From positions 1-57,950 of IMG/VR virus record IMGVR_UViG_3300006852_000002: a stretch of 57,950 nt of DNA. One strand, 5' to 3'. The notes beneath the pieces were generated by a model. The model was given only the letters and a program-made list of their open reading frames with translations. It searched no databases and had not been told where the DNA came from. The DNA comes from a virus. Shown here piece by piece: positions 1,252 to 57,721 of this stretch. How positions within the stretch are numbered: the first letter of the stretch is position 1; every line of letters starts with the position of its first letter. The position numbers and the translations under genes were made by a program.

Positions 1252-1461
1252 GTGAAGGCCATACAGAATAATCCTTGGGGAACTCTTGCGTGGATCTTGG
1301 TAATTTCGCTTATGGCTAAAGCGATTAGCGAAATTGGATCGGTTTTGAAAGAAGTTGAATTTACCGAGTGGAGTGCGGTTCGGGTAATGCTAGTTGTATT
1401 AATTCTTGTGGGGATTGGATACATGGCCGGGCGAGAAGATGGAAAGGAGACACCGAAATGA
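1252..1461 (+). CDS. Small two-helix membrane protein
   Basis: 69 residues from a GTG start with AGGAAA upstream; an in-frame ATG exists at 1216 but would overlap the previous gene and has a poorer ribosome site. Two hydrophobic segments (about residues 10-25 and 42-58) are joined by a charged loop, with a charged C-terminus (GREDGKETPK). No function recognised. Confidence 0.7.
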   Translation: MKAIQNNPWGTLAWILVISLMAKAISEIGSVLKEVEFTEWSAVRVMLVVLILVGIGYMAGREDGKETPK

Positions 1462-1823
1462 AAGACGATTATTATCTTATCTCTAAGGAAGATTTAGATG
1501 CCCGAAAAGCCGTAAGTCGTGGATCTATTCGTATCAGAGATGAACGACTCAGACAGCTTGAGGTAGAGGGTTGGACACCGAAACATGATGATCAATGGGC
1601 GGGCGGACAGTTAGCCGTAGCTGCTTTGGCTTATCTGCAGCACTATGTTTTTGGAATTTTGGACGACAAAACTCCAAAGTGGTGGCCCATAGGATGGAAT
1701 GTATTCTGGTTTAAGCCTACTACAGCTATTCGTAATCTTGAAAAGGCTGGAGCGCTGATTGCCGCTGAAATTGATCGATTACTGAGATTGGAAGATAAGA
1801 ATGAAGTCAAAGAAAAAACCTAG
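1458..1823 (+). CDS. Conserved phage protein of unknown function (WP-W-WFKP type)
   Basis: 121 residues. The start ATG follows GAAAGGAG with good spacing, and the frame overlaps the previous stop by four bases. The block DDQWAGGQLAVAALAYLQHY followed by WPIGWNVFWFKP and NLEKAGALIAAEIDRLLR is a pattern I recognise from many small phage proteins of unknown function. The C-terminal part is an amphipathic helix. No enzymatic motif seen. Confidence 0.8.
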   Translation: MKDDYYLISKEDLDARKAVSRGSIRIRDERLRQLEVEGWTPKHDDQWAGGQLAVAALAYLQHYVFGILDDKTPKWWPIGWNVFWFKPTTAIRNLEKAGALIAAEIDRLLRLEDKNEVKEKT

Positions 1824-5201: not shown

Positions 5202-5232
5202 CGCTAAAGGGGACTTAGGCGAGAGAGCGAAC

Positions 5233-5397
5233 ATGATTCCACTTTTGAAAGCTTTGTTGGGGGTGATTATGAAATGTGTTCCGGTAATTAGAAAGGAATC
5301 GAAAGAAGCGGGGCACCATTTCCAAAAAGCGGGGGAGCACGTAGACTCCGCAATTACGATTTTAGAGAGGCAACATAACAAGATCAAAAAGAAGTAG
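5233..5397 (+). CDS. Short hypothetical protein, last gene of the rightward unit
   Basis: 54 residues, MIPLLKALLGVIMKCVPVI then a Lys/His/Glu-rich helix ending in KIKKK. The hydrophobic start followed by an amphipathic charged tail could be a membrane-associated peptide. GAGAGAG precedes the ATG. It is followed by three stem-loops of the convergent terminator zone. Moderate support only. Confidence 0.5.
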   Translation: MIPLLKALLGVIMKCVPVIRKESKEAGHHFQKAGEHVDSAITILERQHNKIKKK

Positions 5398-38634: not shown

Positions 38635-38868
38635 TTACGATCCGCCCTTCTGTAGAGAGAGTAAAGTTAATTCCCATTTCTTTAGATTTCTGTCGTGAAC
38701 AAGCGTATGATGAAGTAAACATAATGCGACTTCGTTATCTTCTGTCAACGCTTTCTTTCCCTTAGACCTAAATATAATATGATGCTTACCTCTCATCGCT
38801 ATTCGTCCACAGACGATACAGCGGTCTGAAGGGAAATATTTTTTACGGGGTCGATTCTTTTTATTCAT
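38635..38868 (-). CDS. HNH endonuclease
   Basis: 77 residues from the ATG at 38868 (MNKKNRPRKK); an ATG 13 codons upstream overlaps a TATAAT-like box and may instead be promoter. CIVCGRIAMRGKHHIIFRSKGKKALTEDNEVALCLLHHTLVHD shows the zinc Cys pair, the HH of the first motif, the central Asn and the final His of an HNH nuclease. It is alone on the minus strand among noncoding elements, typical of a free-standing homing-type gene. It is short but complete in the motif. Confidence 0.85.
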   Translation of the reverse strand: MNKKNRPRKKYFPSDRCIVCGRIAMRGKHHIIFRSKGKKALTEDNEVALCLLHHTLVHDRNLKKWELTLLSLQKGGS

Positions 38869-39011
38869 AGTTTGTCTTACCAGCGATACGCTTGTCTGAG
38901 CAATCATTATAACTCAGTTTGTAATGCTAGACTTCGGCTGGTATACTTCTGTCTGTACCTTAACAATTTAACCTGACTAGTGTGCAAGGCAGGCAAACAA
39001 GTCAGAAAATA

Positions 39012-39017
39012 TATAAT
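39012..39017 (+). promoter_or_regulatory. TATAAT box of the large RNA
   Basis: Perfect TATAAT in AAAATATATAATG. The predicted start at about 39024 coincides with the first base of a hairpin. No convincing -35 box at normal spacing, so an activator or phage factor may be needed. Confidence 0.55.
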
Positions 39018-39023
39018 GAGAAA

Positions 39024-39724
39024 TGGACGGTCTGAGCTTCACCGCCATAAGTTCTACGCTCTGCATTCGTCAGGGGGCGTCAGCGAAATTCTCCTACCGA
39101 AGGGTACTGCGACTGGCAGCAAGAGAATGTAGCGAACAATAGCGCAAGTGATCGACGGCTGGCAATAGGTTACAGCGTCGGACGAATGGTAACGAGATAA
39201 AATGGCGGCATCACTCAGATTGTAGCGACCAACACTAAGCTACATCACGGAATCATTATATGTAATCTGATAGGTAGAAGCCGTAAAAAGTTCGCGAGAA
39301 CCATGGACAATGAACTCGTGAAGAATAACCTATAGGCGAGTCGCAGAGAAGATGACACAGAGACGATAAAGCTGCAATTGCTGATTGAACGTAATTCTGA
39401 CAAAATTACGCACAGTTAAAGACCCCATGCGATTTTCAAAAGATTCTGGCATTGCGACCAGACCCACAAACCGTAAGATGTTACGGTGCGTTAGATAATC
39501 GCGGTAGCTCAGACGCGAAACTTACCCCTTAAGGTAACGTCTACGCGGAGTCTACCAAGGCGGCGAGCGCGAAGGACACATAGGTATCTGCGATGGTTAC
39601 GGAATTAATTCCTTACGAGAGAGTTCCTTATATCCGTAACTCAGCTAAAGGAAACCTTTTCAGAACTTATTAGAGCGGGAGGTAGGCGAGAAAATAAAGA
39701 ATCGCTTATCTTCCGCTATTTTTG
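39024..39724 (+). ncRNA. Large highly structured RNA candidate (about 700 nt)
   Basis: No credible coding frame over about 1 kb, yet many local helices. These include TGG(a)CGGT/ACCGCCA 39024-39047; CGAC(G)GCTG/CAGCGTCG 39153-39180; CAGATT/AATCTG 39216-39269 around TGTAGC/GCTACA; GTTC-GCGA-GAAC 39290-39301 with a GNRA loop; CGTAATT/AATTACG 39390-39410; TCTGG/CCAGA 39445-39462; CCGTAA-GATG-TTACGG 39471-39486; TTACC/GGTAA 39522-39537 inside AGACG/CGTCT; GTTACGGA/TCCGTAAC 39596-39640; AAAGG-AAA-CCTTT 39647-39659; and the terminator at 39675. TATAAT lies just upstream. GOLLD and ROOL RNAs are phage RNAs of this size, often near tRNAs; membership is untested. Confidence 0.7.
39675..39723 (+). terminator. 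Intrinsic terminator of the large RNA
   Basis: GCGGGAGGTAGGCGA (39675-39689) pairs with TCGCTTATCTTCCGC (39702-39716): 15 bp with three G-U pairs, 12-nt loop, then TATTTTTG. The G-U pairs would be mismatches on the other strand, so the functional transcript is rightward. Confidence 0.85.
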
Positions 39725-39729
39725 TTTAC

Positions 39730-39785
39730 GGGGCATGAGTACCTGGCGGCTTCCGGTGAGGCGGGTTCGATTCCCGTATGCTCCA
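39730..39785 (+). tRNA. tRNA-like element lacking a D-arm
   Basis: GGGGCAT (39730-39736) pairs with ATGCTCC (39778-39784) as a 7-bp acceptor stem with one G-U and discriminator A. GCGGG-TTCGATT-CCCGT (39761-39777) is a canonical T-arm. Only 24 nt lie between: linker GAGT, ACCTG-GCGGCTT-CCGGT (a 5-bp stem with one T-C mismatch, 7-nt loop) and GAG. That is the plan of a D-armless tRNA; read so, the anticodon would be GGC (Ala), but loop position 33 is C, not U. CCA is not encoded (CTT follows). It may be a tRNA mimic or a decayed tRNA. Confidence 0.6.
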
Positions 39786-40079
39786 CTTGTTGACGATAAA
39801 GGAGAGCTTCTCGTTATGCTGGCATCAGGGTAAACAATAGCCAATTTCCCGCGCGGTGAGTTGCCCGAAAAACGTATAGATATAGAATTCGTGTTTCAAT
39901 AGGACGAATAGATTATCGCTACAATACGAAGTAAGTTGACCTAGATAATAGCGAGAAGTTCTTCTGTGTCGTCAACGGCACGAAGGAGGCGGCCTATGTG
40001 GAGCGTAGGGGGATAAAAGCTCCGATACTCTATCCTTACTGTTATAACACTTATGAATTACGCTAAAGGAGATACGACA
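39786..40079. other. Structured noncoding segment after the tRNA-like element
   Basis: No gene. GTTGACGA (39789-39796) can pair with TCGTCAAC (39969-39976), closing a 190-nt domain. Inside are ATTCGT/ACGAAT near 39887-39909 and TCGCTA/TAGCGA near 39916-39953. GGAGC/GCTCC near 39999-40023 lies downstream. It may be the 5' leader of the gene at 40080, or a further RNA domain. Confidence 0.5.
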
Positions 40080-40376
40080 ATGTTAAACGTACAGTCTCAC
40101 AACATTCAAAGCGACTTAGCGGTTCTGGATTTAGACGAACTCATTCAAGTCGTGAACATTGCGGTTGAGTGTTCCCGCATTAAGATGGAGAGCCAGCGTT
40201 ATCCGGCAGGTTGCGACAATCCATCTAGTATACCAGCGGATATAGGATTTTACGCAAAGCAAGCGTTTGACGCCGAGGATCAGTATCTTCGGGCAATCAA
40301 AACTCAACAAGCGCTTTTTGCGGCCAAAGGGTGCAGCGGCGTTATTGTGATTGACGAGGGAAAGAAGGAGAGATGA
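40080..40376 (+). CDS. Hypothetical protein
   Basis: 98 residues. The ATG at 40080 follows TAAAGGAGATACGACA; an in-frame ATG at 40053 places that ribosome site inside the gene and is unlikely. Helical (LDELIQVVNIAVECSRIKMES, YAKQAFDAEDQYLRAIKTQQAL). First gene of the main rightward small-gene run. No family recognised. Confidence 0.75.
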   Translation: MLNVQSHNIQSDLAVLDLDELIQVVNIAVECSRIKMESQRYPAGCDNPSSIPADIGFYAKQAFDAEDQYLRAIKTQQALFAAKGCSGVIVIDEGKKER

Positions 40377-57013: not shown

Positions 57014-57530
57014 AGCATTCACGCTCTGGCACATGAAGAAATCGTGGGAGGGATTTGAAATTGACGAAAGTTTCTACACCGAAGCCCAAGAGCAAACTGG
57101 ACTTGCAGAAGAGACAGTGGATCGCTACATTGACGTATGGGAGATGGCAGAGAAAATTAAAGTCATGTTACCGAAGAATGACTTCCTGCGCTTATTGTCC
57201 CGGCCCATTGGCGATCTCATTGCCATCTCTCAGTTCAAAAAGGAATACGGAATCAGCAAGGGCCAGATCAACAAACTCATCGGAACGCTAGATAATAGCG
57301 AGCTGCGTAAACAGTTGAATGAATATAAAGGTAAAGCCGATAAGAATGGCGGATTGCAGCTAATCATACAAGCCGATGGGACGCTGGAAGCTTGGTCAAA
57401 AGGTCGCGGGGTCTACTTGGGATTCATTGATTTACGGCCTGAGTCGGATGATCCAACTTTGCGCGATAAGGGACTAACATCCCTACTGAAGCGAGGTAAG
57501 ATTAAACTCGTTAAACAAGGAGCGAAATGA
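56838..57530 (+). CDS. Hypothetical helical protein, possible DNA-binding
   Basis: 230 residues; ATG preceded by GAAAGGCAAT. TEAQEQTGLAEETVDRYIDVWEMAE looks like a helix-turn-helix and FKKEYGISKGQINKLIG like a second. It could be an adaptor or ParB/KorB-like DNA-binding protein. A shorter start (MKKSWEGF, 57033) would avoid the long overlap but lacks a ribosome site. Confidence 0.66.
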   Translation: MANTIQTGHDQSVPLKRLEAVLTQTESKVKRAIKLKSPNDGWAVVNSWTEIERVGAISKAFTLWHMKKSWEGFEIDESFYTEAQEQTGLAEETVDRYIDVWEMAEKIKVMLPKNDFLRLLSRPIGDLIAISQFKKEYGISKGQINKLIGTLDNSELRKQLNEYKGKADKNGGLQLIIQADGTLEAWSKGRGVYLGFIDLRPESDDPTLRDKGLTSLLKRGKIKLVKQGAK

Positions 57531-57721
57531 AACAGTACGTATTGACGGATAAAGATTTCGATAATCTTGTTTTAGCAATAGAGCAAGACGTGCTCAGCCA
57601 AACTACAGTTCAAATTCCAGACAAGTACAGCCCGATTCTGATGAAGGAACTAATTTATAGCGCGCTTCGTAGGAATTTCCAGTATCACATTCGCAAATGG
57701 ATAGACGAGGCTAAACAATGA
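57527..57721 (+). CDS. Small hypothetical protein
   Basis: 64 residues, acidic then basic helices (DFDNLVLAIEQDVLSQ, MKELIYSALRRNFQYHIRKWIDEAKQ). Four-base overlaps with both neighbours. Not recognised. Confidence 0.65.
   Translation: MKQYVLTDKDFDNLVLAIEQDVLSQTTVQIPDKYSPILMKELIYSALRRNFQYHIRKWIDEAKQ

Follow-up and report, generated by a model that had tools for sequence, protein, structure and literature searches.

A possible reduced alanine-type tRNA-like domain in a large folded RNA of a viral genome

Can a stretch of viral DNA that holds the two ends of a tRNA, with very little between them, still encode a working RNA domain? The question is raised by positions 39730-39785 of a 57,950-base IMG/VR virus record, which as a whole is called the window here. 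A sequence-only reading had seen there a tRNA-like element without a D-arm, built on the plan of D-armless mitochondrial tRNAs, and had considered it very unusual for a phage. We give a probability of roughly 0.45 to the explanation that the element is a reduced alanine-type tRNA-like domain, forming part of a folded plus-strand RNA of ~1.1 kb, that is transiently accessible to enzymes and is switched by a hairpin. The features of the locus are collected in Table 1.

Table 1 Features in and around the tRNA-like element (positions are those of the window).
Feature	Position	Strand	Basis or remark
Small HNH-endonuclease-like ORF, 90 aa, last of leftward block	38635-38907	-	PHROG HNH families
Weak sigma-70-like promoter TTGTAA-17-TATACT, extended TG	38919-38947	+	consensus scan only, 9/12
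ORF-free structured region ("large RNA")	38950-39728	+	no Rfam family
16-bp hairpin (39674-39689 with 39702-39717), tail ATTTTTGTTT	39674-39727	+	fold; terminator-like
Acceptor stem, 5′ strand, GGGGCAT	39730-39736	+	7/7 pairs with 39778-39784
Connector GAGTACCTGGCGGCTTCCGGTGAG, 24 nt, replacing D and anticodon arms	39737-39760	+	sequence read
T-arm GCGGG-TTCGATT-CCCGT	39761-39777	+	sequence; alignments to Rfam tmRNA and model R1
Acceptor stem, 3′ strand, ATGCTCC with U70, then discriminator A73	39778-39785	+	sequence read
Hairpin arm 1a: 3′ half of T-loop, T-stem, acceptor	39770-39786	+	pairs with 39998-40014
Hairpin arm 2a	39789-39817	+	pairs with 39948-39976
Hairpin arm 2b	39948-39976	+	complement of 39789-39817
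Hairpin arm 1b ("anti-element") GTGGAGCGTAGGGGGAT	39998-40014	+	complement of 39770-39786
First gene-sized ORF of rightward block	40080-40376	+	listed ORF opens at 40053; no Pfam match

Direct reading of the sequence and a script both confirmed that a 7-bp acceptor stem and a canonical T-arm lie 24 nt apart. All 7 acceptor pairs and all 5 T-stem pairs can form, the T-loop fits TTCRANN, and two of the pairs are G-U, namely G3:U70 and the first T-stem pair. When 39730-39785 is folded alone, the 5′ strand of the acceptor shows a pair probability of 0.96-1.0. G3:U70 together with A73 constitutes the alanine identity rule in the accessible part of PMC3968760, and a domain carrying both of these identity elements would be expected to be alanylatable. 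The letters following A73 are CTT, so that CCA is not encoded, and U33 is absent, both as had been read earlier. Neither a D-arm nor an anticodon arm with a 7-nt loop and U33 is present in 39730-39785, where the connector comprises 24 nt only. The 17-nt stem-loop that had been proposed for this connector was not borne out: a possible CTGG/CCGG stem (39743-39746 with 39753-39756) is weak, the two connector stems examined have computed pair probabilities of at most 0.03, and the fold energy of the domain is ordinary and no better than that of shuffled sequences (z of -0.17 and -1.25). The pieces GAGTA-CCTGG and CCGG-TGAG may be remnants of the 3′ strand of a tRNA D-stem, an anticodon stem and a variable loop. 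RNase P uses the elbow contact, in which two G residues of the D-loop meet the T-loop; a two-G D-loop suited to this contact found no confident placement in the 24-nt connector.

Since U33 is absent and there is no credible anticodon arm, the element cannot decode. A decoding D-armless tRNA, as in animal mitochondria, would account for the 7-bp acceptor, the canonical T-arm and their short spacing; it was nevertheless rejected, and is hardly credible, because U33 and a stable anticodon stem are missing and because the mitochondrial runs of ARAGORN (-mtx, -mtmam and -mtd, normal threshold) returned 0 genes, which also removes the mitochondrial plan suggested by the sequence-only reading. To our knowledge, bacterial hosts have no factors adapted to D-armless tRNAs. 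What is supported from that reading is a tRNA-like, non-decoding, plus-strand element without a D-arm.

Standard searches pass over this element. ARAGORN found no tRNA and no tmRNA over the whole window, Rfam gave no match at gathering score, and the Rfam tRNA model returned nothing in the window at E ≤ 0.001, including any other tRNA. Relaxed ARAGORN runs (-ps50, -ps30 and -ps20) over 39500-40100 made several low-score calls that we judged to be noise, among them permuted-tmRNA ("tmRNAp") calls that appeared only at -ps50 and -ps30. We also searched for the loose geometry (7/7 acceptor pairs, 5/5 T-stem pairs, a TTCRANN loop and a gap of 15-59, both strands) in 300 Markov windows and obtained 33 matches, or 0.11 per window. 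The real window has two such matches, the second of which (57486-57575) is poor and chance-like, so the bare geometry is only moderately unusual.

A more specific comparison came from other phages, where minimal alanine-type elements turned out not to be rare, which modifies the earlier reading. A first pattern (GGGG, 18-40 nt, T-arm, CYCC) retrieved at least 120 viral loci, a non-random sample; 23 rows showed 7/7 acceptor pairs, and an ARAGORN call overlaps 5 of these. One tag-less plan, which we term mini-tmRNA, is built from a tmRNA D-loop (TTCGAC), a short hairpin standing where tmRNA has its mRNA-like domain, a GGAC or GGAT joiner, and the T-arm. A pattern dedicated to it likewise retrieved at least 120 viral loci in a non-random sample (L055, L065, L108, L123, L147 at 5218-5295, L182 and L215 are among the mini-tmRNA loci), and for 115 of the 120 loci listed a perfect 7-pair acceptor lies at most 24 nt upstream, taking the best of several registers. 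Among the matches listed there are 82 distinct mini-tmRNAs, 74 of them of 73-81 nt and eight of 60-69 nt. G3, U70 and A73 occur in 82/82 of these listed elements, under a pattern that left N73 free, allowed C or T at position 70 and did not specify G3 while demanding acceptor pairing. The Rfam tmRNA model scores above its gathering score on six mini-tmRNAs (59.5-72.7 bits). CCA is encoded by 34 of the 115 listed loci, and default ARAGORN calls overlap 2 of the 115, leaving 113 without one.

With the mini-tmRNA of L147 as query, blastn matched 14 records, which include the Streptomyces phages GiJojo, LuckySocke, pSt2308, Shaeky, BRock and Alone3 and also the Stenotrophomonas virus Jojan60. In LuckySocke the mini-tmRNA lies un-annotated inside a tRNA array, and in GiJojo it lies under the hypothetical protein gene 44 (PP725410.1 17023-17265; L330), an annotation that is probably a misannotation. 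No SmpB was detected in 36 records that may be fragments, the window and the three records with D-arm-less elements described below included, against 10 of 14 control genomes; 15 of the same 36 possibly fragmentary records have tRNAs over the cut-off. In the literature on phage or minimal tmRNA and on truncated or D-armless tRNA, represented mostly by titles and the starts of abstracts of open publications, we recognized no description of these elements; the accessible part of PMC9004378 presents an ARAGORN-based survey of phage tmRNAs of the one-piece and two-piece types. Two further observations were made along the way. A conserved mini-tmRNA, 81 nt long when its discriminator is counted, occurs on bacterial genome contigs (L341, L347, L372, L374, L381, L387, L411, L422, L426, L441 and L449) and makes up 11 of the 17 perfect-acceptor matches among at least 119 genome loci, most of the remaining matches overlapping ordinary tmRNA genes; the six of these contigs with listed titles are cyanobacterial (Nostoc, Desmonostoc and others). 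A Pistol ribozyme (69.6 bits; L182 13302-13377, minus strand) shares a phage contig with a mini-tmRNA.

For covariation analysis and for a covariance model we used 23 of the 82 distinct elements, those with 13-nt spacing and a gap-free 5′ alignment, an earlier alignment of 70 of the 82 having been poorly registered at the 5′ end; the covariation figures thus describe that subset alone. In it, 97.1% of the cells are paired, both partners vary in 15 of the 22 pairs, and none of the five measures was reached by any of 500 shuffles; the D-loop motif GG-N-TTCGAC is present in 23/23 sequences. The resulting model, R1, from which the window sequence was excluded, scores 39730-39785 at 30.4 bits (E 4.3e-5; filters off), and the next match in the window reaches 12.4 bits. 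As background we took 78 unselected phage loci (691,638 bases) fetched for terminase and not for such elements. Two of these loci hold true mini-tmRNAs (92.6 and 48.2 bits), and the rest give no R1 match above 15.8 bits under default filters. Pattern-selected loci score 16-41 bits where the pattern had picked them, and most of this comes from the acceptor and T-arm, so the R1 score is to be read as tRNA-like ends of this type and not as a mini-tmRNA. A coincidence, in which a T-arm-like hairpin and acceptor-like ends happened to arise inside a long structured hairpin, would agree with the 0.11 expected occurrences of the bare geometry per window, with the unremarkable energy and with the use of identical bases in a far stronger hairpin; it is improbable in view of the isolation of the R1 score from the 691,638-base background and of the sequence-level match to the 3′ halves of tRNA-Ala and tmRNA. 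The sequence and structure of 39730-39785 are well above chance, and the element is very probably a true tRNA-derived domain.

The next question is from which kind of RNA it derives. Pairwise comparison with 810 distinct phage and host tRNAs and 95 mini elements gave tRNA-Ala as the best isotype (best score 47.8, median 25.9, n=36), the other isotypes with at least 25 members having medians of at most 14.3 among the eight isotypes printed. One tRNA-Asp equals the tRNA-Ala best at 47.8, so that the best alignments are to tRNA-Ala(tgc) and tRNA-Asp(gtc). Mini elements reach 45.5 (L437) with a median of 27.9, and since this median is so near the 25.9 of tRNA-Ala, the pairwise test fails to separate the two origins. 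The 3′ half of the element matches phage records that include annotated tRNA-Ala and tmRNA; by eye count, 39753-39777 agrees at 24 of 25 positions with the 3′ half of a phage tRNA-Asp in L470. A scan for window-like 3′ halves found 4 loci, two of which are ordinary tRNAs. With tRNA-Ala (RF00005 and phage tRNA arrays) the element shares acceptor length, G3:U70, A73, the T-arm, a 4-nt variable-loop-like TGAG and its place as best isotype in the pairwise alignment, whereas it differs in having neither a D-arm nor a 7-nt anticodon loop with U33 and in escaping both ARAGORN and, at its threshold, Rfam.

The tRNA-like domain of tmRNA (RF00023) and the mini-tmRNAs also have an alanine-type acceptor, a T-arm, no D-stem and a short length. 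According to the accessible part of PMC3968760, the D-loop of tmRNA is reduced and stemless, and SmpB binding requires contacts between D-loop and T-loop. Once thresholds are relaxed, the tmRNA model of Rfam aligns with 39730-39785 from end to end, its mRNA-like part being skipped. The score is 20.9 bits in a search of 1161 bases but 12.4 bits in one of 121 bases, both below the gathering score of 47, and is therefore unstable. A tmRNA or mini-tmRNA type would be consistent with that end-to-end alignment at 20.9 bits, with the 30.4 bits of R1 and with the mini-tmRNA of L437 aligning nearly as well (45.5) as the best tRNA-Ala (47.8). It is, however, an unlikely reading: neither the D-loop motif GG-N-TTCGAC, universal in the model sequences, nor a GGAC or GGAT joiner is found in 39737-39760, the 4-nt joiner being TGAG; the hairpin at the place of the covarying P2 is weak, with 4 possible pairs in the R1 alignment and a probability of at most 0.03; the Rfam score falls in the shorter context; and the group medians do not separate the readings. 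Because the tmRNA D-loop motif is absent, we do not class 39730-39785 as a mini-tmRNA, and the lack of both TTCGAC and GGAC/GGAT, together with the tRNA-like CCGG-TGAG-GCGGG, favors a reduced tRNA. Most likely, it would derive from a tRNA-Ala of host or phage.

Two other candidates were rejected. A full, two-piece or permuted tmRNA is not supported, as the element is below the gathering scores of both RF00023 (20.9 or 12.4 bits against 47) and RF04321 (8.1 bits, T-arm only); taking 40000-40006 as a permuted 5′ acceptor strand gives A3:U70, with no D-loop motif after it and the same 8.1 bits for RF04321. An attachment site, in which the T-arm and acceptor 3′ strand would be an attP copy of the 3′ end of a host tRNA or tmRNA, would belong to a kind of fragment that, in the part of PMC9897764 available to us, is a common product of integrating elements; it was discarded as very improbable, given that the acceptor has its matching 5′ strand too and that no integrase was found among the 30 PHROGs-scanned proteins nor among the Pfam-scanned ones.

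Parallels to a reduced tRNA-Ala were found at three phage loci, L017, L071 and L122, whose elements have tRNA-Ala as their closest tRNA alignments. Each has a TATAAT box 11-12 nt upstream and a -35 box. The elements of L071 and L122 are identical (58/58); those of L017 and L071 agree at 51 of 58 columns, the differences being confined to the connector, against 61/116 and 59/110 in the 100-nt flanks. Their connectors are of 25-26 nt compared with 24 nt in the window, with GAG after the acceptor and no TTCGAC, and L071 and L122 share CGGTGAG before the T-stem with the window. Unlike the window element, each has a sigma-70 promoter to itself, and none is surrounded by a comparable large RNA. The window element thus has the alanine-type acceptor, the T-arm and the short TTCGAC-free connector of these three and lacks the upstream promoter. 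A scan for a promoter plus an element returned 25 loci, with a perfect or tmRNA-like acceptor in L017, L071, L122, L080 and L215, most of the remaining loci being ordinary tRNAs. Some further elements were noted. Beside its D-arm-less tRNA-Ala element, L122 carries a run of short, promoter-driven non-coding units (1434-1800, minus strand), one of which starts GGGGCAAC and ends GTTGCCCC. A repeated promoter-linked T-arm element beginning GGGGATTAGGTGCAAG occurs in L454 (1760-1819 and 3406-3465, minus strand) and L464 (13589-13648, plus strand), has no tRNA call and forms only 3 acceptor pairs in the tested register. Another short T-arm element without an ARAGORN call is found in L451 (5913-5960) and L458 (10782-10829), on contigs with 19-20 tRNAs, and its acceptor possibly begins upstream of GGGG.

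The window element is set in a larger structured RNA, located between a leftward and a rightward gene block, the latter starting at ~40080. No ORF of at least 90 aa occurs in the 823 nt upstream. The plus strand folds better than shuffled sequences over 38960-39860 (z -3.0) and 39640-40050 (z -5.4), three pieces of the large-RNA region have plus-strand z of -3.2, -1.3 and -3.7, and the plus strand folds better than the minus strand in 7/7 pieces. An identity with GOLLD or ROOL was rejected, the Rfam models of GOLLD, ROOL and OLE giving nothing in 38900-40060 at E ≤ 10; what is shared with GOLLD and ROOL is a large ornate phage RNA, the difference being the lack of a covariance match. The linker of GOLLD sometimes holds tRNAs, as described in the accessible part of PMC12286853. 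The possible start of the large RNA is the weak promoter of Table 1, and the consensus scan of 38948-39860 found no sigma-70 promoter of the element's own directly before 39730 on the plus strand. The hairpin at 39674-39727, with a 12-nt A-rich loop and a U-tract, ends 2 nt before 39730 and would give the large RNA upstream a terminator-like end; 39670-39728 folds with z of -5.2 on the plus strand and -2.2 on the minus strand. A simple terminator scan had missed it, since its loop exceeds the 8-nt limit of the scan. The position directly after a large RNA, as claimed earlier, is right, but plus-strand structure runs on past the element to ~40040.

This continuation includes a long hairpin that competes with the tRNA-like fold. 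Arm 1 has 14 Watson-Crick and 2 G-U pairs out of 17 with one mismatch, and a pair probability of 0.93-1.0 when 39725-40020 or a longer stretch is folded; arm 2 has 24 Watson-Crick and 4 G-U pairs out of 29. The fold z of 39754-40041 is -7.3 on the plus strand against -3.1 on the minus strand. With 6 G-U and no A-C positions, the plus strand is the folded one, and the hairpin is kept, if at all, as plus-strand RNA. The pair probability of the acceptor depends on context: short stretches give 0.96-1.0 (39730-39785), 0.81-0.84 (39720-39795) and 0.89-0.92 (39600-39790), the longer 38955-39790 gives about 0.2, and all stretches extending to 40020 or 40040 give 0.0. The equilibrium fold at full length excludes the tRNA-like fold, the two being mutually exclusive in silico, and this modeling suggests a switch or a time-limited fold. 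The anti-element is peculiar to the window locus: mini-tmRNAs lack it, since in the 87 (out of 95 distinct) with at least 350 nt downstream no sequence in the following 400 nt is complementary at 15 or more of 17 positions, compared with 16 in the window, and the best complement in L017, L071 and L122 is 10 each.

How, then, might a domain that is lost from the final fold be used? In the nascent RNA, 39730-39785 could fold while its 3′ partner has yet to be made, and tRNA enzymes could act in that interval. RNase P would cut at 39729/39730, so that the large RNA upstream gained a defined 3′ end, and CCA addition and alanylation of 39730-39785 might follow. Once 39948-40014 had been made, the long hairpin would capture the 3′ half and turn the domain off. 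This order of transcription, processing and switching is a proposal: as the anti-element lies more than 200 nt further along, processing could precede its transcription and be stopped by the later fold. That RNase P processes the adjacent RNA, as already suggested by the earlier reading, is plausible because the terminator-like hairpin and its U-tract end 2 nt before 39730; the competing hairpin would remove the RNase P substrate unless cleavage were co-transcriptional. A comparable arrangement exists in the MALAT1/mascRNA and MEN-beta/menRNA pairs, where, as in the window, a tRNA-like element closely follows a large non-coding RNA on its 3′ side, and in MALAT1/mascRNA RNase P makes both ends and the elbow contacts matter, according to the accessible part of PMC11693755. 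These are human nuclear RNAs in which a small D stem-loop is retained and the anticodon-like stem is long, and no homology is implied.

The plainest alternative to a hairpin-switched domain is a decaying tRNA-Ala, which we consider nearly as likely: a functionless copy that has lost the D-arm positions and part of the anticodon loop, the overlapping long hairpin being the functional structure. Such a relic would explain why the 3′ half resembles an ordinary tRNA (24/25 with the tRNA-Asp of L470, besides the tRNA-Ala matches), and the connector can be read as leftover tRNA-Ala pieces, including the loop GGC; the hairpin is also far more stable than the domain, and the window has no other tRNA. 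Against decay, 12/12 stem pairs, G3:U70 and A73 are intact despite the altered middle, and comparable elements are conserved with promoters in other phages. A blastn search of 50,697 phage records with the RNA region gave no DNA match, the exact 25-nt 3′ part had 0 matches in viral contigs, and a scan for the terminase as a single protein gave 0 confirmed hits. Terminase relatives in the phage collection have ~25% identity or less (15 listed of 111); an alignment search of IMG/VR found three nearer ones (54, 49 and 34% identity), whose records, possibly fragments, gave 0/3 matches with R1 and only short chance matches with the 1111-base RNA region. Since no relative with this locus was found, the relic remains a serious rival.

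For the reduced, hairpin-switched domain speak the intact arms with G3:U70 and A73, the R1 score of 30.4 bits over a background of at most 15.8, tRNA-Ala as best isotype, the context-dependent acceptor pairing, the plus-strand hairpin, the adjoining terminator-like hairpin and the conserved comparable elements of L017, L071 and L122. Against it stand the ordinary fold energy, the full-length fold that excludes the domain, the lack of its own promoter, the unplaced elbow contact and the lack of a relative with the locus. The chances that 39730-39785 has been kept for function rather than as a relic seem to us evenly balanced, and its use as an enzyme handle controlled by the hairpin is a tentative and rather doubtful proposal.

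In a wider view, which we regard as speculative and unlikely as a whole, phages would widely encode non-decoding, alanine-charged minimal RNAs (mini-tmRNAs and D-arm-less tRNA-Ala) that use host AlaRS, EF-Tu and, for the tmRNA type, SmpB, and that would serve stalled ribosomes, tmRNA competition or the decoying of tRNA-cutting defences; the window would hold a version set in a large RNA with an anti-element that turns it off. The mini-tmRNAs are overlooked by gene finders, and two Streptomyces phage records (LuckySocke and GiJojo) have no RNA annotation for them. If these elements are alanylated, phages own tiny acceptor RNAs able to enter ribosome rescue tag-free, and a phage block or redirection of trans-translation by an RNA, rather than by a protein, becomes directly testable. 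The window case would add a conformational switch and would tie such elements to the unexplained large RNAs of phages.
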